From: Deltaproteobacteria bacterium
GTDB taxonomy: Bacteria; Desulfobacterota; Syntrophorhabdia; Syntrophorhabdales; Syntrophorhabdaceae
Assembly (NCBI GenBank): GCA_029553295.1
Contig: JAKPCK010000002.1
Span: 1 to 64,000 of the forward strand
Direction: 5' to 3'
DNA length: 64,000 bases
Shown here: positions 49,522 through 64,000 of the stretch, piece after piece
Numbering within the stretch: position 1 is the first letter of the stretch
How the letters are laid out: every line of letters starts with the position of its first letter
Notes under the pieces: generated by a model
The model's database searches: none
Told to the model about the DNA's origin: nothing
The model's input: only the letters and a program-made list of their open reading frames with translations
Translations under genes and position numbers: made by a program

Positions 49522-51981
49522 TTATATAGATTTTTCCCCTTTGCTTTCGCCTCCATTAAGGGCATATGCAGTCAGTGCTAATATAGGGACAGGTCTTATA
49601 TTATTCTCCCTTTCCCATGCCCGGATTAAAGAAGTGGCTGTATATCCATCCATTACAGGCATCTGCATATCCATAAGGATTAAATCGAACATCTCATGTC
49701 CTTCCTTGTATTTATCCAGGGCAATCTTGCCATTCTCTGCCAGGAATATTTTATGGGGTGTATTTTTAAAATATGACCAGATAAGGAGGCGGTTATCTTC
49801 ATTGTCTTCGGCTACCAGTATATTTAGAGGTTTTTTGCGTCGTTTCTCTGTTTTTCCTTGAATCTTTTGGGTCTCCTCCTCTTTCTGGGGTCTATATCCC
49901 AGTGTTGTCTTGATTGCCTCTAAAAGGTCTGCCCTTTTTATGGGTTTATTGAGGATGGATGTTATACCAATGCCCCGGGCCTTTTCTGTTTCGTCCTTTA
50001 TGTAACCCGATGTAAGCATGATTATATGACTCTTCTCTGCAAGCCCCATATCCTTTATTTTGCTGGCTATCTGTATGCCATCCATGTCAGGCATATGGTA
50101 GTCCAGCAGTATTAGACTGTAGGGTGATGATTCCTGGATACTCTTCTGTAGTATATCAATGACCTGTCTACCGTTTTCTGCGTCGGTGACTGATGCGCCG
50201 AGGTTGCTTATCATCTCCCTTAGAATCATCCTGTTGGTGCTGTTATCATCTATTACAAGGACCTTCATACCTTTTATATCAACCATTACCGGTCTTTCCC
50301 TTACCCTGTCCTGGTCTCTCTGGAGTCCAAAGCATGCTGTAAATGACATCTTTGTCCCCTGGCCCAATCTACTCTCTACCCATATCTCGCCGTCCATCAT
50401 CTCTACAATCTTTTTTGATATGGCCAGACCAAGACCAGTGCCGCCGTATTTCCTTGTTGTAGATGCATCTGCCTGGGTAAACTTCTCAAATATAAGACCC
50501 AGCTTATCCTCAGGTATACCTATGCCTGTATCCTTGACAGAGAATAATAGAACAACATATTCTGGGGTTGAGTATCCTTTTTTAACACTGTCTGAGACCC
50601 TCTTGTTCCTGACCTCTATCCCCTTTTTCCTTGACCCCTTTGACACAGATACATTGAGCATCACCTCACCTCTTTCTGTGAATTTGATGGCATTTCCTAT
50701 GAGGTTTACCAGGACCTGTCTCAGCCTTGTTGGGTCACCAATAAGGTATAAGGGTACATCAGGTTCTATCATATATAATAGTTCTATATTTTTCTCATGT
50801 GCCTTTAGAGAGAGGACATCGAGCATTCTTTCTATGTGATCAAGGAGGTCAAACTCTGCATACTCCAATTCTATCTGTCCTGATTCTATCTTGGATAAAT
50901 CCAGTATATCGTTTATAAGATTTAAGAGGCTTTCCCCGGCATCATGGAGGACCTTGACATATCTAAACTGCTCTGGTGTGAGATGGGTATCCAGGAGCAG
51001 TTCTGCCATGCCTATTATGGCATTCATGGGTGTTCTTATCTCGTGACTCATACTGGCAAGGAATTCACTCTTTGCATTATTTGCAAGTTCTGCCTCTTCC
51101 TTGGCCTTGATGAGGTCTTCCTCGACCTTTTTCAGATCTGTTATATCGAGTATTACACCTACTATGCCTGCAACCTCGTTGTTTCTGTTGAGGTATGTTG
51201 CCTTATTGAACACTACAAAGTGCTTTGAGCCGTCAGGGTATCTGACCTGTGTCTCATAGATCTGTTTACCAGGGTTTTTGAATAGTTCTTCATCCATGGT
51301 GTGATATTTTTCAGCAATCTCTTTTTCAGCAATCTCAAAAACAGAGCGTCTCAGTATCTCCCCCTTGGGCCGTCCGAGATAAGCCTCAAATGCCTTATTG
51401 CAGCCCAGATATAGCCCATTTTTATCCTTATAGAATATGGGGGCAGGTATAGTATCTATAAGCACCTGGAGGAAGTTTATCTGCTCCAATAGGTTTTCTT
51501 CTGCCTCTTTTAGCTCGGATATATCTGTGACTACATGGATGCTCCCCAGTATCTTGCCATCACCGTCATATAGGGGGGTAGTGGATATCTGAAAAGTCCC
51601 ATGGAGTATCTTATCGAATACCTCAACGCTGTGCTTACACGCCTCCCTTAATGTCTTTACATGGGGGCAGAAAAGAGGTGGCTTATCTGTCTTATGGAAT
51701 ACCTCATAGCATTTTTTACCTATTACCTCCTGTGGTCTATATCCCATGCTATTTGCTGCCTTCTTATTTACCCTGACAATCCTGTGCTCCGTATCTATAA
51801 CCCCTATCATGTCTGTGAGAGAGTCGAATATATCCTCCCACTCTTTCTTTGCCCTTGTAATAATCTTGTTTAATTCTATATTCTTCTGGAGTGTCTCTGT
51901 AAGTTCTCTGTTCTCTTTGCGGAGAAGCTCCAATTCTTCTGTGCTATTGATTGTGGGATTGTTTTTCTTTTTTTTGTTCAT
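49522..51981 (-). CDS. Cytosolic hybrid histidine kinase, second receiver truncated
   Basis: 819 residues, no membrane segment. Order: coiled N-terminus, PAS1 (about 50-158, with cysteines at 91 and 105), PAS2 (about 170-285), HisKA with His313 in SMSHEIRTPMN, HATPase (DTGIGIPEDK; GGTGLGLAIS), receiver 1 (VIDDNSTN, LLDYHMPDMDG, NKPIKR), receiver 2 (VAEDNEDN, LMDMQMPVMDG). Receiver 2 ends soon after strand 4 (ALTAYALNGGESKGEKSI) and lacks the strand-5 lysine and final helix that its paralogue at 59.1 kb keeps. The output partner is unknown. Confidence 0.85.
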   Translation of the reverse strand: MNKKKKNNPTINSTEELELLRKENRELTETLQKNIELNKIITRAKKEWEDIFDSLTDMIGVIDTEHRIVRVNKKAANSMGYRPQEVIGKKCYEVFHKTDKPPLFCPHVKTLREACKHSVEVFDKILHGTFQISTTPLYDGDGKILGSIHVVTDISELKEAEENLLEQINFLQVLIDTIPAPIFYKDKNGLYLGCNKAFEAYLGRPKGEILRRSVFEIAEKEIAEKYHTMDEELFKNPGKQIYETQVRYPDGSKHFVVFNKATYLNRNNEVAGIVGVILDITDLKKVEEDLIKAKEEAELANNAKSEFLASMSHEIRTPMNAIIGMAELLLDTHLTPEQFRYVKVLHDAGESLLNLINDILDLSKIESGQIELEYAEFDLLDHIERMLDVLSLKAHEKNIELLYMIEPDVPLYLIGDPTRLRQVLVNLIGNAIKFTERGEVMLNVSVSKGSRKKGIEVRNKRVSDSVKKGYSTPEYVVLLFSVKDTGIGIPEDKLGLIFEKFTQADASTTRKYGGTGLGLAISKKIVEMMDGEIWVESRLGQGTKMSFTACFGLQRDQDRVRERPVMVDIKGMKVLVIDDNSTNRMILREMISNLGASVTDAENGRQVIDILQKSIQESSPYSLILLDYHMPDMDGIQIASKIKDMGLAEKSHIIMLTSGYIKDETEKARGIGITSILNKPIKRADLLEAIKTTLGYRPQKEEETQKIQGKTEKRRKKPLNILVAEDNEDNRLLIWSYFKNTPHKIFLAENGKIALDKYKEGHEMFDLILMDMQMPVMDGYTATSLIRAWERENNIRPVPILALTAYALNGGESKGEKSI

Positions 51982-59103: not shown

Positions 59104-62100
59104 ATGAGAAGGCTAAACCTTACAGCAAAGATGGCTATAGCATTTTCTGTGCTCTTCTTTGTCATCTTCACGGGCTGTGCCATATCCCTCTTTTATTATT
59201 TTGAAGGTCATTATAAAGAACTTGTTGCAAATCAGCAGTATGAGCTCATCTCTGAGGTGGCAAGAGGTCTTGACAGAAAGATAAACGAGGCCCAGAAGCT
59301 CATTGGCCTGGCAATAGGCAATCCCCCACAGGATATCATCAATAACACCCAAAGGTTAAAATCTTTTTTTATAGATAAAATCAAGAATAAACCTTTTTTG
59401 AGTCATTATTTTGACCACGGCATTATCCTGTTCTCTAAAGATGGTGACATTATAGGGGAATATCCTGAAGAAAATAAAAGGGATATAAAAAATTTTGCAG
59501 ACAGGGAATATCTCCAGGAGACAATAAAGACAAAAAAACCTTATATCTCCAAGCCTTATCTATCATCAAAACCACCATACGAGCCTGTTATTATGTTCAC
59601 GCACCCCCTGTTTAATCAAGACGGGGAATTGGTGGCTGTAATAGGTGGTGGTCTAAGGTTGACCAAAGAGAATTTTTTAGGGGACTTGACACGGGTAAAG
59701 ATAGGCAAGACAGGCTATGTATATCTTTTTGATAAGGATAGGAGGATAATAATTCATCCTGATAGATCCAGGATAATGAAGCAGGATGTGCCTGTTGGCG
59801 TAAATAAGCTATTCGATATGGCAATAGAGGGTTTTGAAGGGACAGATGAGACTGTTACATCAAGGGGCCTCCATGCCATTACAAGCTTTAAACGCCTCAC
59901 AAATAAGGACTGGATCCTCGGGGCAAATTATCCTGTAAAAGAGGCCTATTCTTCCATTAGAAAGGCCCAATGGTATCTTGGTTGGTTCACAGGTATAGGT
60001 ATAGCTGTATCCATAATTATTATAATATTCCTGATGAGGGGCTTTCTCAACCCCTTGAGTATCCTGACAAGACAGATACAGGAGATAGGTGAAGGGACTT
60101 ACGAAACAAGATCAGTAAAGGTAAATGGAGCAGGTGAGATAGGGGAACTGGCATCATCTTTCAACGAGATGTTAAAAAAACTCTCTGAGAGGGAGGATGC
60201 TTTAAAGACCACCCTTAAATCCCTTAAGGAGCGCGAGGCAAGGATAAGGGCTATCCTGGATAATACAGTAGAGGGGATCATCACCATAAACGAAGAGGGG
60301 ATAATAGAGGATTTTAACCCTGCTGCAGAACATATCTTTGGATATTCGGCACAGGAGGTGATAGGTAGAGATGTGAACATACTTATGCCTGAGCCTTATA
60401 ATAGAGAGCATAAAGAATATATAAAAAGATACCTCGCCACAGGAGAAACAAAGGTCATAGGCGCCAGGATAGAGATAGTAGGCAGAAGAAAGGATGGGGG
60501 CATATTCCCCATGGAGATATCTGTGAGCGAGGTAAAGATAGGGGATAGAAGGATATTCACAGGCCTTCTGCGTGATATTACGGAGCGTAAACAGACAGAG
60601 GAGGAGCTTATTAAGGCCAGAGACTTAGCAGAGGCAGCCAATAAGGCAAAAAGCAACTTCCTTGCCAGCATGAGTCATGAGATTAGGACCCCCATGAATG
60701 CCATAATAGGCATGGCTGATTTACTCATGGATACCAAACTAAGTGATGACCAGTTAAGATATATCCAGGTCTTCAAAAATGCAGGGGAAAATCTTTTGAA
60801 TATTATCAATGATATCCTTGATATATCCAAGATAGAGGCAGGCCATCTTGAGATTGAATCTACAGGTTTTGATATTATTGAGCTCATTGAGAAGACCTGT
60901 GAGTTTATGTCCAGTAAAGGGCACGAAAAGGGGTTGGAGGTGGCGTGTCGTATCCAAAAAGACGTACCCCAGTATCTTATAGGAGACCCTGTGAGGATAA
61001 GACAGGTCTTAACCAATCTCATGGGAAACGCCATAAAGTTTACAGAAAAGGGCGAGGTTGTTGTTGAGGTATCACTGGTAGAGAAGGGGTTTAGGGCTAA
61101 GGATTCGGTGATTAAACATATGGCTGAAGGCAGTCCTCCATTACATGGGGATGTAACCCTTATGTTTTCTGTTAGGGATACAGGTATAGGCATACCTGAA
61201 GATAAGATAAACACCATATTTGATAAGTTTACACAGGTCGATGCATCCATTACAAGGAAATACGGTGGGACAGGTCTTGGCCTTACCATCTCCAAGAGCC
61301 TTGTGAGGCTCATGGGTGGTGATTTATGGGTAGAGAGCGAGGTAGGTAAGGGAAGCACATTTTCTTTTACAATCCCCTTTAGTATCCAGGAGAGTTGCCC
61401 TGAAAGACCCTATGATAGAAGAAAAGAGATAAAGAATCTAAAGGTCCTCATCATTGACGACAATGCAACAAACAGGATGATATTAACAGAGACAATCTCT
61501 AACTGGTGCCGGGAGGTCCAGGAGGCAGAAGACGGGCTCCAGGGCATCAAAAAGCTCAAAGATGCAAAACAAAAGGGTATCCCTTTTGGGCTACTCCTTC
61601 TTGATTATCATATGCCGGGGATGGATGGCCTTGAGGTAGTAGAGATGATAAGAAAAGACCCATCCATATCTGAGACACCTATTATTATGCTTACCTCAGA
61701 TTATGCAAGACAACATTCGTCAAGATTAAAGGATTTAAATATACCATCTTTTATCACAAAGCCCATAAAGAGGTCAGAACTTTTAACTGCTATCTATAAT
61801 TTAGCCGGGGAAAGCACAGAGACAGAGGGCAATTTTTGCAGACCAAAAGAGAAAAAAGAGGGCCTTGTAGATCTGAGGAGGCTCAAGATACTCATCTCAG
61901 AGGATAATGAGGACAACAGGCTTTTGATAAAAGCATATCTAAAAAATACCCCCTATGAGTTACATTTTGCAGAGAACGGCGAGGAGGCTGTAAGGCTATA
62001 CAAAGAGGGGAGATACAACCTTGTCCTTATGGATATACAGATGCCTGTTATGGATGGATATGAGGCAACAAGACAGATAAGGATGTGGGAGACAGAATCA

Positions 62101-62253
62101 AGGGCAGAGAAGACGCCTGTGGTTGCCCTTACTGCCTTTGCCCTAAAAGAGGAGATCCAGAAGAGTATAGATGCAGGCTGTGATGCCCATATCCCAAAAC
62201 CCATTAAAAAAACTACCTTGATAGAGGTCATAGAGAGATATGCAAGGCCATAA
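59104..62253 (+). CDS. Membrane hybrid histidine kinase: Cache-HAMP-PAS-HisKA-HATPase-REC-REC
   Basis: 1049 residues. TM1 (8-32), periplasmic dCache sensor (33-290; GKTGYVYLFDKDRRIIIHPD), TM2 (293-312), HAMP (312-365), PAS (about 380-495), HisKA with His525, HATPase (DTGIGIPEDK; GGTGLGLTIS), receiver 1 (LIIDDNATN, LLDYHMPGMDG, TKPIKR) and receiver 2 (ISEDNEDN, LMDIQMPVMDG, PKPIKK). The PAS is strongly FixL-like (LMPEPYNREHKEYIKRYLAT), and His436 aligns with the FixL haem ligand. AAAGGGG precedes the ATG. The HPt-like and pilin genes follow, hinting that the cascade controls pili. Confidence 0.9.
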   Translation: MRRLNLTAKMAIAFSVLFFVIFTGCAISLFYYFEGHYKELVANQQYELISEVARGLDRKINEAQKLIGLAIGNPPQDIINNTQRLKSFFIDKIKNKPFLSHYFDHGIILFSKDGDIIGEYPEENKRDIKNFADREYLQETIKTKKPYISKPYLSSKPPYEPVIMFTHPLFNQDGELVAVIGGGLRLTKENFLGDLTRVKIGKTGYVYLFDKDRRIIIHPDRSRIMKQDVPVGVNKLFDMAIEGFEGTDETVTSRGLHAITSFKRLTNKDWILGANYPVKEAYSSIRKAQWYLGWFTGIGIAVSIIIIIFLMRGFLNPLSILTRQIQEIGEGTYETRSVKVNGAGEIGELASSFNEMLKKLSEREDALKTTLKSLKEREARIRAILDNTVEGIITINEEGIIEDFNPAAEHIFGYSAQEVIGRDVNILMPEPYNREHKEYIKRYLATGETKVIGARIEIVGRRKDGGIFPMEISVSEVKIGDRRIFTGLLRDITERKQTEEELIKARDLAEAANKAKSNFLASMSHEIRTPMNAIIGMADLLMDTKLSDDQLRYIQVFKNAGENLLNIINDILDISKIEAGHLEIESTGFDIIELIEKTCEFMSSKGHEKGLEVACRIQKDVPQYLIGDPVRIRQVLTNLMGNAIKFTEKGEVVVEVSLVEKGFRAKDSVIKHMAEGSPPLHGDVTLMFSVRDTGIGIPEDKINTIFDKFTQVDASITRKYGGTGLGLTISKSLVRLMGGDLWVESEVGKGSTFSFTIPFSIQESCPERPYDRRKEIKNLKVLIIDDNATNRMILTETISNWCREVQEAEDGLQGIKKLKDAKQKGIPFGLLLLDYHMPGMDGLEVVEMIRKDPSISETPIIMLTSDYARQHSSRLKDLNIPSFITKPIKRSELLTAIYNLAGESTETEGNFCRPKEKKEGLVDLRRLKILISEDNEDNRLLIKAYLKNTPYELHFAENGEEAVRLYKEGRYNLVLMDIQMPVMDGYEATRQIRMWETESRAEKTPVVALTAFALKEEIQKSIDAGCDAHIPKPIKKTTLIEVIERYARP

Positions 62254-62309: not shown

Positions 62310-63131
62310 ATGGCTGATAGAGAAGGTTTTGACGAGGACAAAAAGAGAAAGAGGATAGATGTATATGTGGATAAGGAAATCATGCCCCTTATACCGGAGT
62401 TCCTTGAAAACCGACAGAAAGACCTGAATAATCTGAGGATTGCTTTAGAAAAGGGAGACCACGAAACAATAAGGACCATAGCCACCAATCTAAAAGGTAG
62501 CGGTGGGACCTATGGGTTTGAGGCCATAACAGAGTTTGGCAATGCCATAAGAAATGCCTTAGATGAGAACAATGTGGGGGCTGTAAATACCCTTATAAAG
62601 AATCTCGAGAGCTATCTAAACCACATAGATATAAAGGAATCAAGCCTGAAAAAGGTATGTCAGAACTGTGGCAATATCTTCGAATCAAAGGATGAGGATA
62701 TAAAACTCTGCCCCCAGTGTATCGTGGAGAAACAGGAAAAGATTATAGAGAGAACAGAGGAGAAAAAAGAGAAAAAAAAGTCACATTTAAAGACAGTTAT
62801 GGCTACTGTTACATCTGTCCTTGTGGCGGCAGCCATTGTCGTCCTTATAATCCAGTTACCAAAGATTTTAGAGGAGACAAAATCTGGAAAACCCATAAGG
62901 ATTGGGACATATGCCACCGATGAAAAAACAGATATTTGCATAAAAAATCTGTGGGAGATATCAAGGCTCCTCCAGGAGAATAAAAAACCTGACAATTCTT
63001 TAACCTGTCCGGTAACAGGTAGCCCATATAAAATAGAGGATAACATGGTGTCATGTCCGAATCCAGAGAGGCATGGATTAAAGGCCCTCTATGTAAGCAA
63101 AGAAAGAAAGATACCGGAGGCTGTAAAATGA
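62310..63131 (+). CDS. Membrane protein with degenerate HPt-like domain and zinc ribbon
   Basis: 273 residues from ATG 62310 (AGAGGT 8 bases upstream). Residues 20-105 form an HPt-like helical bundle, but the motif reads IATNLKGSGGTYGF, with Thr59 where the phospho-accepting His belongs. Then come a zinc ribbon (Cys117, 120, 134, 137), a charged helix, one membrane span (164-183) and an extracytoplasmic part with C-x-V-T-G-S-P-Y and CPNPERHGLKALY, like the C-termini of pilin-like proteins. It overlaps the prepilin gene by 4 bases (ATGA). Probably links the kinase to the pilus machinery without classical phosphotransfer. Confidence 0.6.
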   Translation: MADREGFDEDKKRKRIDVYVDKEIMPLIPEFLENRQKDLNNLRIALEKGDHETIRTIATNLKGSGGTYGFEAITEFGNAIRNALDENNVGAVNTLIKNLESYLNHIDIKESSLKKVCQNCGNIFESKDEDIKLCPQCIVEKQEKIIERTEEKKEKKKSHLKTVMATVTSVLVAAAIVVLIIQLPKILEETKSGKPIRIGTYATDEKTDICIKNLWEISRLLQENKKPDNSLTCPVTGSPYKIEDNMVSCPNPERHGLKALYVSKERKIPEAVK

Positions 63132-64000
63132 TAAGTTATAAAGTTTTTTCTAACAGAGGCTTCAGCATCATGGAACTCCTTATAGTCCTTGCCATAATAG
63201 GGATATTGGCAAGCATTGGGTTACCCCATCTCCTCCATGCATTAAAGGCAAGACAGACAGTAACCTGTGCCATGACAAGGATAGATGTTCAGAATTCAGA
63301 GAGACAGTTTGTAGTGGATAATCAGAGACCCTCTAACAGTATAGATGAGCTTATACAATCAGGGTATCTCAAGGCTGTCCCAAGTTGTCCATCTGGCGGC
63401 ACATACCTGTGGATAAACGACCCATCCCCCAATAACCCCTTTAGAAACCTCGGTTGTTCTATCCATTATTTCCCTGTATCTGCCTCTTCCACCCCCACTG
63501 TTAATCCTCTCTTTACAAGCGAATTTACCAGTATGAGTGGACTTACACCACTTGTAGGTGCATGGAATATCCAGAATGGGACGCTTGTCCCCACAGGCCC
63601 AGGTGAGAATAGGCTTGCCTTTGGTGCTAAGACATGGAAGGACTATACAGTTACCGTAAATGCCACACTTACAAGCGGTAAGGGCTATGGTGTCTACTAT
63701 AGGGCTGATGGCAACCCCAATATTACAGGCTATGTATTCCAATATGACCCTGGATTGGGTGATAAGTTTGTTGTAAGAAGGGTGGTAAATGGCGTTGAGC
63801 AGGCTGTTTTTCAGACTGTCAAGATCCCAAATGGTTTCCCTATCTATAACCAATCCCATGAGATATCCATCACTGTCCAGGGTGACCAGCATATAATAAA
63901 GGTAGACGGTCAGACAATGCTTAGTTTTAAAGACTCTACATTTTCATCTGGTATGGCAGGCTTAAGGAGCTGGGGCAGTTCCAAGGTAAGCTTTGATAAT
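63128..64000 (+). CDS. Type IV prepilin-like protein fused to a lectin-like (LamG/DUF1080-type) domain, 3' end missing
   Basis: 291 codons visible, still open at the window edge. The short leader ends in a prepilin peptidase site, NRGFSIMELLIVLAIIGILA, with the conserved Glu at +5 of the mature chain. After a pilin-like globular part (CPSGGTYLWINDP) a second domain begins near GAWNIQNGTLVPTGPGENRL and continues with YTVTVNATLTSGKGYGVYYR and ITVQGDQHIIKVDGQ. That pattern is of the concanavalin/LamG-like jelly rolls of the DUF1080 kind, which bind or cut sugars. Likely a minor pilin carrying a carbohydrate-binding head. Confidence 0.75.
   Translation, partial: MISYKVFSNRGFSIMELLIVLAIIGILASIGLPHLLHALKARQTVTCAMTRIDVQNSERQFVVDNQRPSNSIDELIQSGYLKAVPSCPSGGTYLWINDPSPNNPFRNLGCSIHYFPVSASSTPTVNPLFTSEFTSMSGLTPLVGAWNIQNGTLVPTGPGENRLAFGAKTWKDYTVTVNATLTSGKGYGVYYRADGNPNITGYVFQYDPGLGDKFVVRRVVNGVEQAVFQTVKIPNGFPIYNQSHEISITVQGDQHIIKVDGQTMLSFKDSTFSSGMAGLRSWGSSKVSFDN

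Follow-up and report, generated by a model that had tools for sequence, protein, structure and literature searches.

A histidine-less HPt domain on a membrane protein encoded with a hybrid kinase, a prepilin, an intact HPt protein and a receiver-fused PilB/GspE-class ATPase

The ChpA protein of P. aeruginosa includes Xpt domains in which Ser or Thr replaces the phosphorylatable His and which have not been seen to be phosphorylated (PMC5812489). These Ser/Thr domains were suggested to act as scaffolds (PMC12632253), and FimL, a homologue of the ChpA N-terminal region, brings PilG to the pole (PMC10519157). In cyanobacteria, PATAN-CheY regulators such as PixE bind PilB1 (PMC7690835), and the Arabidopsis pseudo-HPt protein AHP6 is a repressor of cytokinin signalling (PMC12785465). 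A 2024 review of PilB cofactors does not contain the word "receiver" in a text search, and the only REC domain that it describes is that of FimX (PMC11656802). Even for Pseudomonas it is not settled how signalling proteins act on type IV pilus motors: the Ser/Thr domains of ChpA have no established role, and direct contacts with PilB are missing (PMC12632253, PMC10519157).

The stretch of DNA analysed here (64,000 nucleotides; the window), from an uncultured bacterium of Syntrophorhabdaceae type, ends within a run of five genes that specify a hybrid kinase, a membrane protein with Thr in place of the HPt His, a prepilin, a His-bearing HPt protein and an ATPase with receiver domains at both ends. 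The run extends beyond the edge of the window, and its last two genes were absent from an earlier sequence-only reading because the window stops at 64000, inside the prepilin gene. The features, all on the forward strand, are as follows.

59104..62253, forward strand: hybrid sensor kinase of 1049 aa, dCache-HAMP-PAS-HisKA-HATPase-REC-REC, without an HPt domain of its own
62310..63131, forward strand: pseudo-HPt, zinc-ribbon, membrane span and periplasmic domain protein of 273 aa, 79% identical to its orthologue in genome G001
62397..62615, forward strand: HPt domain of this protein, residues 30-102, predicted four-helix bundle (Pfam, AF2, Foldseek)
62484..62486, forward strand: codon ACC for Thr59 where the phosphorylatable His would stand; the G001 orthologue has Ser
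62658..62720, forward strand: zinc-ribbon-like Cys117-x2-Cys120 ... Cys134-x2-Cys137 (alignments; weak Zn-ribbon profile matches under the cut-off)
62796..62852, forward strand: predicted transmembrane helix, residues 163-181 (hydropathy; long helix 135-189 in the model)
62865..63128, forward strand: putative periplasmic domain, residues 186-273, with a C..CP..PY..CP..H pattern; dN/dS 0.08
63128..64000, continuing on the contig to 64021, forward strand: prepilin of 297 aa, whose start overlaps the preceding stop by 4 bases (ATGA)
63557..64000, continuing on the contig to about 64003, forward strand: concanavalin-like PF06439 domain of the prepilin (39.3 bits against a cut-off of 26.8)
contig 64058-64369, forward strand: HPt protein of 103 aa with intact His, two genes downstream of the pseudo-HPt gene
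contig 64362-66956, forward strand: REC-T2SSE-REC ATPase of 864 aa, with a receiver, an MshEN-like stretch, T2SSE and a second receiver

The locus resembles the Pil-Chp system, in which a phosphorelay controls the type IV pilus extension ATPase and Ser/Thr HPt-type domains are present. However, a CheA-like kinase bears the altered domains in Pil-Chp, whereas here the kinase is a HisKA hybrid and the altered HPt is located on a separate membrane protein; moreover, PilG affects PilB localisation via other proteins, whereas the receivers of the present locus are fused to the ATPase. No CheA-type kinase, MCP or CheW partner was found in the gene run, which therefore was not assigned to Pil-Chp. 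In the FimL-PilG-FimV system, FimL recruits the receiver protein PilG to the pilus pole by contact, a likeness to the pseudo-HPt that is functional only. FimL is not known to be a membrane protein with a zinc ribbon, nor to be encoded together with a prepilin and an ATPase in such an operon. As with PATAN-CheY proteins such as PixE, the receivers would act directly on a pilus extension ATPase, but those are separate regulators that bind PilB1 whereas here the receivers are built into the ATPase and accompanied by a dedicated HPt protein. AHP6 also is a His-less HPt fold in a phosphorelay, but one from plant cytokinin repression without a link to pili. RcsD of E. coli similarly is a membrane protein with an HPt fold, and one of the nearest solved structures is that of its HPt domain (1sr2); unlike the protein described here, RcsD is a working phosphotransfer protein, which passes phosphate to RcsB. 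A literature search of an open-access library found no description of a receiver-fused PilB/GspE protein, nor of a layout with a dead HPt on a bitopic membrane protein, a live HPt and a receiver-fused motor in one operon. By analogy, the working principle of a His-less HPt has precedents in Pil-Chp, and it is the layout that differs. The sequence-only reading had stated that it knew of no described system with this layout, which is too strong in view of the Ser/Thr Xpt domains of ChpA (PMC5812489) and the recruitment of PilG by FimL (PMC10519157).

The gene for the membrane protein starts with an ATG at 62310, 56 bases past the kinase stop codon, with an AGAGG ribosome site; the order of kinase and Thr-bearing membrane protein proposed by the sequence-only reading, the ACC codon for Thr59 and the 4-base overlap with the prepilin gene at 63128 all were confirmed. 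PF01627 matched the HPt domain with 31.7 bits against the Pfam cut-off of 24.6 and with 34.2 bits in the genome search. A single-sequence AlphaFold model already yielded a four-helix bundle, and the model built from a 26-sequence alignment had a mean pLDDT of 87.6 with most of the bundle >90. The bundle helices in the AF2 model span residues 25-48, 51-62, 71-85 and 89-104. In Foldseek comparisons with the PDB the best matches were HPt domains (rmsd 1.2-2.0), led by RcsD/YojN for the first model (rmsd 1.2 over 80 columns) and by HptB for the second (1.8 over 83). Judged from profile matches and models, the Thr-bearing domain is a genuine HPt fold. The phosphorylatable His of the HxxKG motif is absent (IATNLKGSGG around Thr59), and the protein is classed as an HPt by predicted fold and not as a phosphotransfer protein. 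The Lys at +3, the Gly-Ser-Gly-Gly loop and a Tyr-Gly-Phe motif match the consensus of His-type HPts, from which the domain departs in His to Thr/Ser, Gly-1 to Ala, Ser+1 to Asn, Met+2 to Leu and Gly+8 to Thr. All other aligned HPt homologues keep the His (25/25 in the first set, plus the later f13, f52 and f68 loci). Both pseudo-HPts also have a His at residue 51 (62460-62462), eight residues before the lost His, where other HPts have F, L or Y at the helix start.

A CxxC...CxxC arrangement missed by the sequence-only reading, the zinc-ribbon-like segment, separates the HPt domain from the membrane span. The HPt side should be cytoplasmic since the N-terminal flank of the span is rich in Lys (positive-inside rule). 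The outer part had been said to resemble pilin C-termini, a likeness that found no support: hhalign against the system's own prepilins gave a probability of 2%, and when the outer part alone was compared with prepilins 27 of 200 column shuffles scored equally high. Only a short C...CP...PY...CP...H pattern is common to both, no pilin model of Pfam or NCBIfam matched the outer part above cut-off, and the hypothesis of pilin homology was rejected on the hhalign comparison with its shuffled controls. The model of the periplasmic domain comprises one helix and four short strands, a composition that does not in itself speak against a pilin. Foldseek with the whole protein produced HPt and other helical-bundle matches with no pilin among the matches listed, and a PDB sequence search gave weak matches only.

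The prepilin possesses the GFxxxE N-methylation/cleavage motif (PF07963, 25.6 against 21.2 bits; TIGR02532, 30.6 against 16.3). The description of this protein as lectin-tipped stands for the N-methyl motif and for a C-terminal PF06439 domain, but as we take the fold class of PF06439 to be concanavalin-like, that term appears to fit better than lectin. The T2SSE domain of the 864-aa ATPase scored 352.7 bits with PF00437 and includes the Walker A and B motifs (GPTGAGKT and DPDILFIGEVRD); the receivers retain their Asp. Scores were below the equivalog cut-offs for both PilB (TIGR02538, 366.8 against 675.65) and GspE (TIGR02533, 386.2 against 630.25), and the protein is assigned by these profiles as a relative of PilB/GspE and not as a standard PilB or GspE. 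No T2SSF platform protein is encoded in the operon, and the only two in the genome are at C22 and C138. The source genome also specifies two further PilB/GspE-class ATPases, together with a standard type IV pilus cluster (C22) and a PilY1/minor-pilin cluster (C32). As neither platform protein is near the operon, the gene counts suggest that the receiver-fused motor probably relies on a platform that the other ATPases use as well. Genes on the opposite strand start after the ATPase gene on contig C100.

The H-box and ATPase motifs of the kinase are intact and its two receivers were recognised from sequence and Pfam profiles. The kinase orthologue in G001 occupies the same place in the run, and in many members of the family the orthologous kinase ends in a fused HPt domain. 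A second hybrid kinase in the window (49522-51981, reverse strand) has a last receiver that ends in mid-domain (...ALTAYALNGGESKGEKSI*), with no continuation in other frames just downstream.

One full orthologue of the pseudo-HPt protein was found, in the Syntrophorhabdaceae MAG SKW74 of the same genus (G001, JAOAHW010000076.1), which carries the same five genes in identical order. The sequence-only reading had tied its proposal to conserved gene order, to loss of the His at residue 59 in orthologues and to a four-helix HPt bundle: the order is conserved in this orthologue, its residue is Ser, and the AlphaFold models form the bundle. No other full-length pseudo-HPt protein was detected among 46 genomes of the class or among 395 genomes sampled from the phylum; the protein was found in two species only, both represented by metagenome-type assemblies. 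An additional relative from a contig search proved to be G001's own contig (22972 bases) and was not counted as an independent case. The genome of a third species in the genus, 93% complete, encodes neither the pseudo-HPt protein nor the receiver-fused ATPase, and the module therefore is accessory. The combination of kinase, HPt and receiver-fused ATPase appears from sequence comparison to be conserved across several families of Desulfobacterota, and is absent from the 2024 review of PilB cofactors (PMC11656802). In G004 (L043) and G016 (L045) the His-HPt gene is beside that for the receiver-fused ATPase without membrane protein or prepilin genes. In G400 (L138 4358-9238) the f52 versions of the kinase and the receiver-fused ATPase are each split in two frames, due either to assembly errors or to decay, and both are whole in the f52 copy of G382.

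The counterpart of residues 110-273 is a separate protein of 163-183 aa without an HPt domain in seven genomes of three families (G011, G053, G092, G127, G184, G233 and G197), and can be followed in G296 as far as a scaffold gap. Neither Pfam nor NCBIfam has a model that matched this family above cut-off, and a search of a plasmid collection with the membrane part gave no match. The gene order in G053, G127, G092 and G233 is His-HPt, receiver-ATPase-receiver, membrane protein and prepilin, with genes that overlap or are close. Among 395 genomes, nine were strong carriers of the membrane protein and 11 carried the receiver-fused ATPase, with seven in common (P = 4e-11), and in all seven shared carriers the two genes stand in one run. 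The protein in the window therefore is most readily understood as a pseudo-HPt fused to an established partner of the motor, and the membrane part, as judged from its separate homologues, predates the fusion to HPt. An apparent fusion of the membrane part with the ATPase in G296 (a 987-aa frame) was rejected; it gives no support for contact between the two because the frame spans an 86-N scaffold gap. The module of family f13 (G053, G127, G184, G233 and G296; L038, L103-L105 and L107) adjoins the same four-gene block, which encodes a 448-aa protein, a 275-aa membrane protein, a 423-aa glutamyl-tRNA reductase-like protein and a 468-aa protein and whose order is best kept in G053, G127 and G296.

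The proposed course of events is that the membrane kinase would phosphorylate its own receivers, and that the small soluble His-HPt would carry the phosphoryl group to the receivers at both ends of the PilB/GspE-class ATPase. Phosphorylation of these receivers would switch the motor, which in turn would act on the prepilin of the operon. The His-HPt gene adjoins that for the receiver-fused ATPase in 12 of the 12 loci examined (G000, G001, G004, G016, G053, G092, G127, G197, G233, G296, G382 and G400), and from this linkage the route from kinase through His-HPt to the ATPase receivers is very probably the main signal path. The sequence-only reading had proposed that the dead HPt could act by contact instead of by phosphate transfer. 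The idea of contact survives the examination of the orthologue and of the fold, but its replacement of phosphate transfer is incomplete because the intact HPt two genes downstream adjoins the receiver-fused ATPase; phosphate transfer probably is the main path, with contact as an added layer.

The His-less HPt would have joined a zinc-ribbon/membrane/periplasmic protein that was a component of the module beforehand, and would form a side branch that retains a receiver by contact at the inner membrane, next to the prepilin, without uptake of phosphate. The docked receiver most likely would be one of the two of the ATPase or, alternatively, one of the kinase's. Docking is the most economical role for the pseudo-HPt because the receiver-binding surface is kept, known chemistry would not let the domain take up phosphate and the membrane tether is beside the prepilin, and we give it an even chance. 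The broader description of the locus as a phosphorelay that drives a specialised pilus or secretion motor, with the pseudo-HPt as a non-catalytic receiver dock, may equally well hold as fail. Docking is opposed by the restriction of the full protein to two species, by the third species of the genus with neither this protein nor the receiver-fused ATPase, and by G011, in which the membrane part and a concanavalin-tailed prepilin are present (L039 1864-3230) and no receiver-fused ATPase is encoded in the genome; perhaps this pair can work with an ordinary motor. The zinc-ribbon Cys residues are lost from the G011 membrane protein. If docking is correct, the locus would couple signalling to pilus assembly in a manner that is new. 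As the receivers are in the motor, the live HPt is adjacent and the dead HPt is small and separable, the question whether a dead HPt acts as a scaffold is testable with a few purified domains. A more tentative extension of docking is that the pseudo-HPt acts as a clutch that senses phosphorylation state: it would bind the unphosphorylated ATPase receiver and hold it either at the pilus base or away from it, and its grip would alter once the intact HPt has phosphorylated the receiver. Were this so, a pair of live and dead HPts would gate a pilus motor through receivers built into the motor itself.

The main rival to docking is that the pseudo-HPt is a decoy which competes with the intact HPt for receivers and damps the relay, the membrane serving only to place it near the kinase. 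Its fold is the same and its receiver-facing motif near-identical to that of the intact HPt of the same operon, and the plant pseudo-HPt AHP6 is a repressor (PMC12785465). However, a decoy has no need of fusion to a zinc-ribbon/membrane/periplasmic protein that elsewhere is tied to the ATPase and prepilin, and we regard this role as unlikely. Somewhat more doubtful still is that the bundle was repurposed, with the HPt fold kept only for oligomerisation or linking and receiver binding lost. In trees the pseudo-HPts form a deep, long branch separate from the intact HPts, so that function may have shifted, but the strongest conservation is in the surface around the lost His (K, GSGG and YGF) and not just in the core. 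That Thr/Ser or the conserved His51 is itself phosphorylated, making the protein an active phosphotransfer or phospho-switch protein, is highly improbable: although the two species share a hydroxyl residue at the lost-His position, and His51 takes in each the place of the F/L/Y of other HPts, phosphorylation of the Ser and Thr Xpt domains of ChpA was not observed (PMC5812489) and His51 in the model is at the helix start, more than two turns from the active position.

Ratios of dN/dS determined by the Nei-Gojobori method for the single pair G000 and G001, with dS of 0.6-1.0, were 0.131 for the pseudo-HPt domain and 0.133 for the intact HPt, compared to 0.080 for the periplasmic domain, 0.082 for the ATPase and 0.117 for the kinase. 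The pseudo-HPt domain is as constrained as the working HPt and is under purifying selection. Thus, although its distribution is narrow (two species), a neutral relic, in which a decaying HPt copy is still translated, to no use, at the N-terminus of the membrane protein, is barely credible and was rejected on a dN/dS equal to that of the intact HPt at a dS of about 1, together with an undamaged frame and a high-confidence fold. An origin by recent tandem duplication of the neighbouring HPt also was rejected because of the deep separate branch in the trees. The nearest His-bearing relative of the pseudo-HPt, subject to a long-branch warning, is a stand-alone His-HPt in an unrelated redox neighbourhood of G004 (C56, L040 9269-9595).
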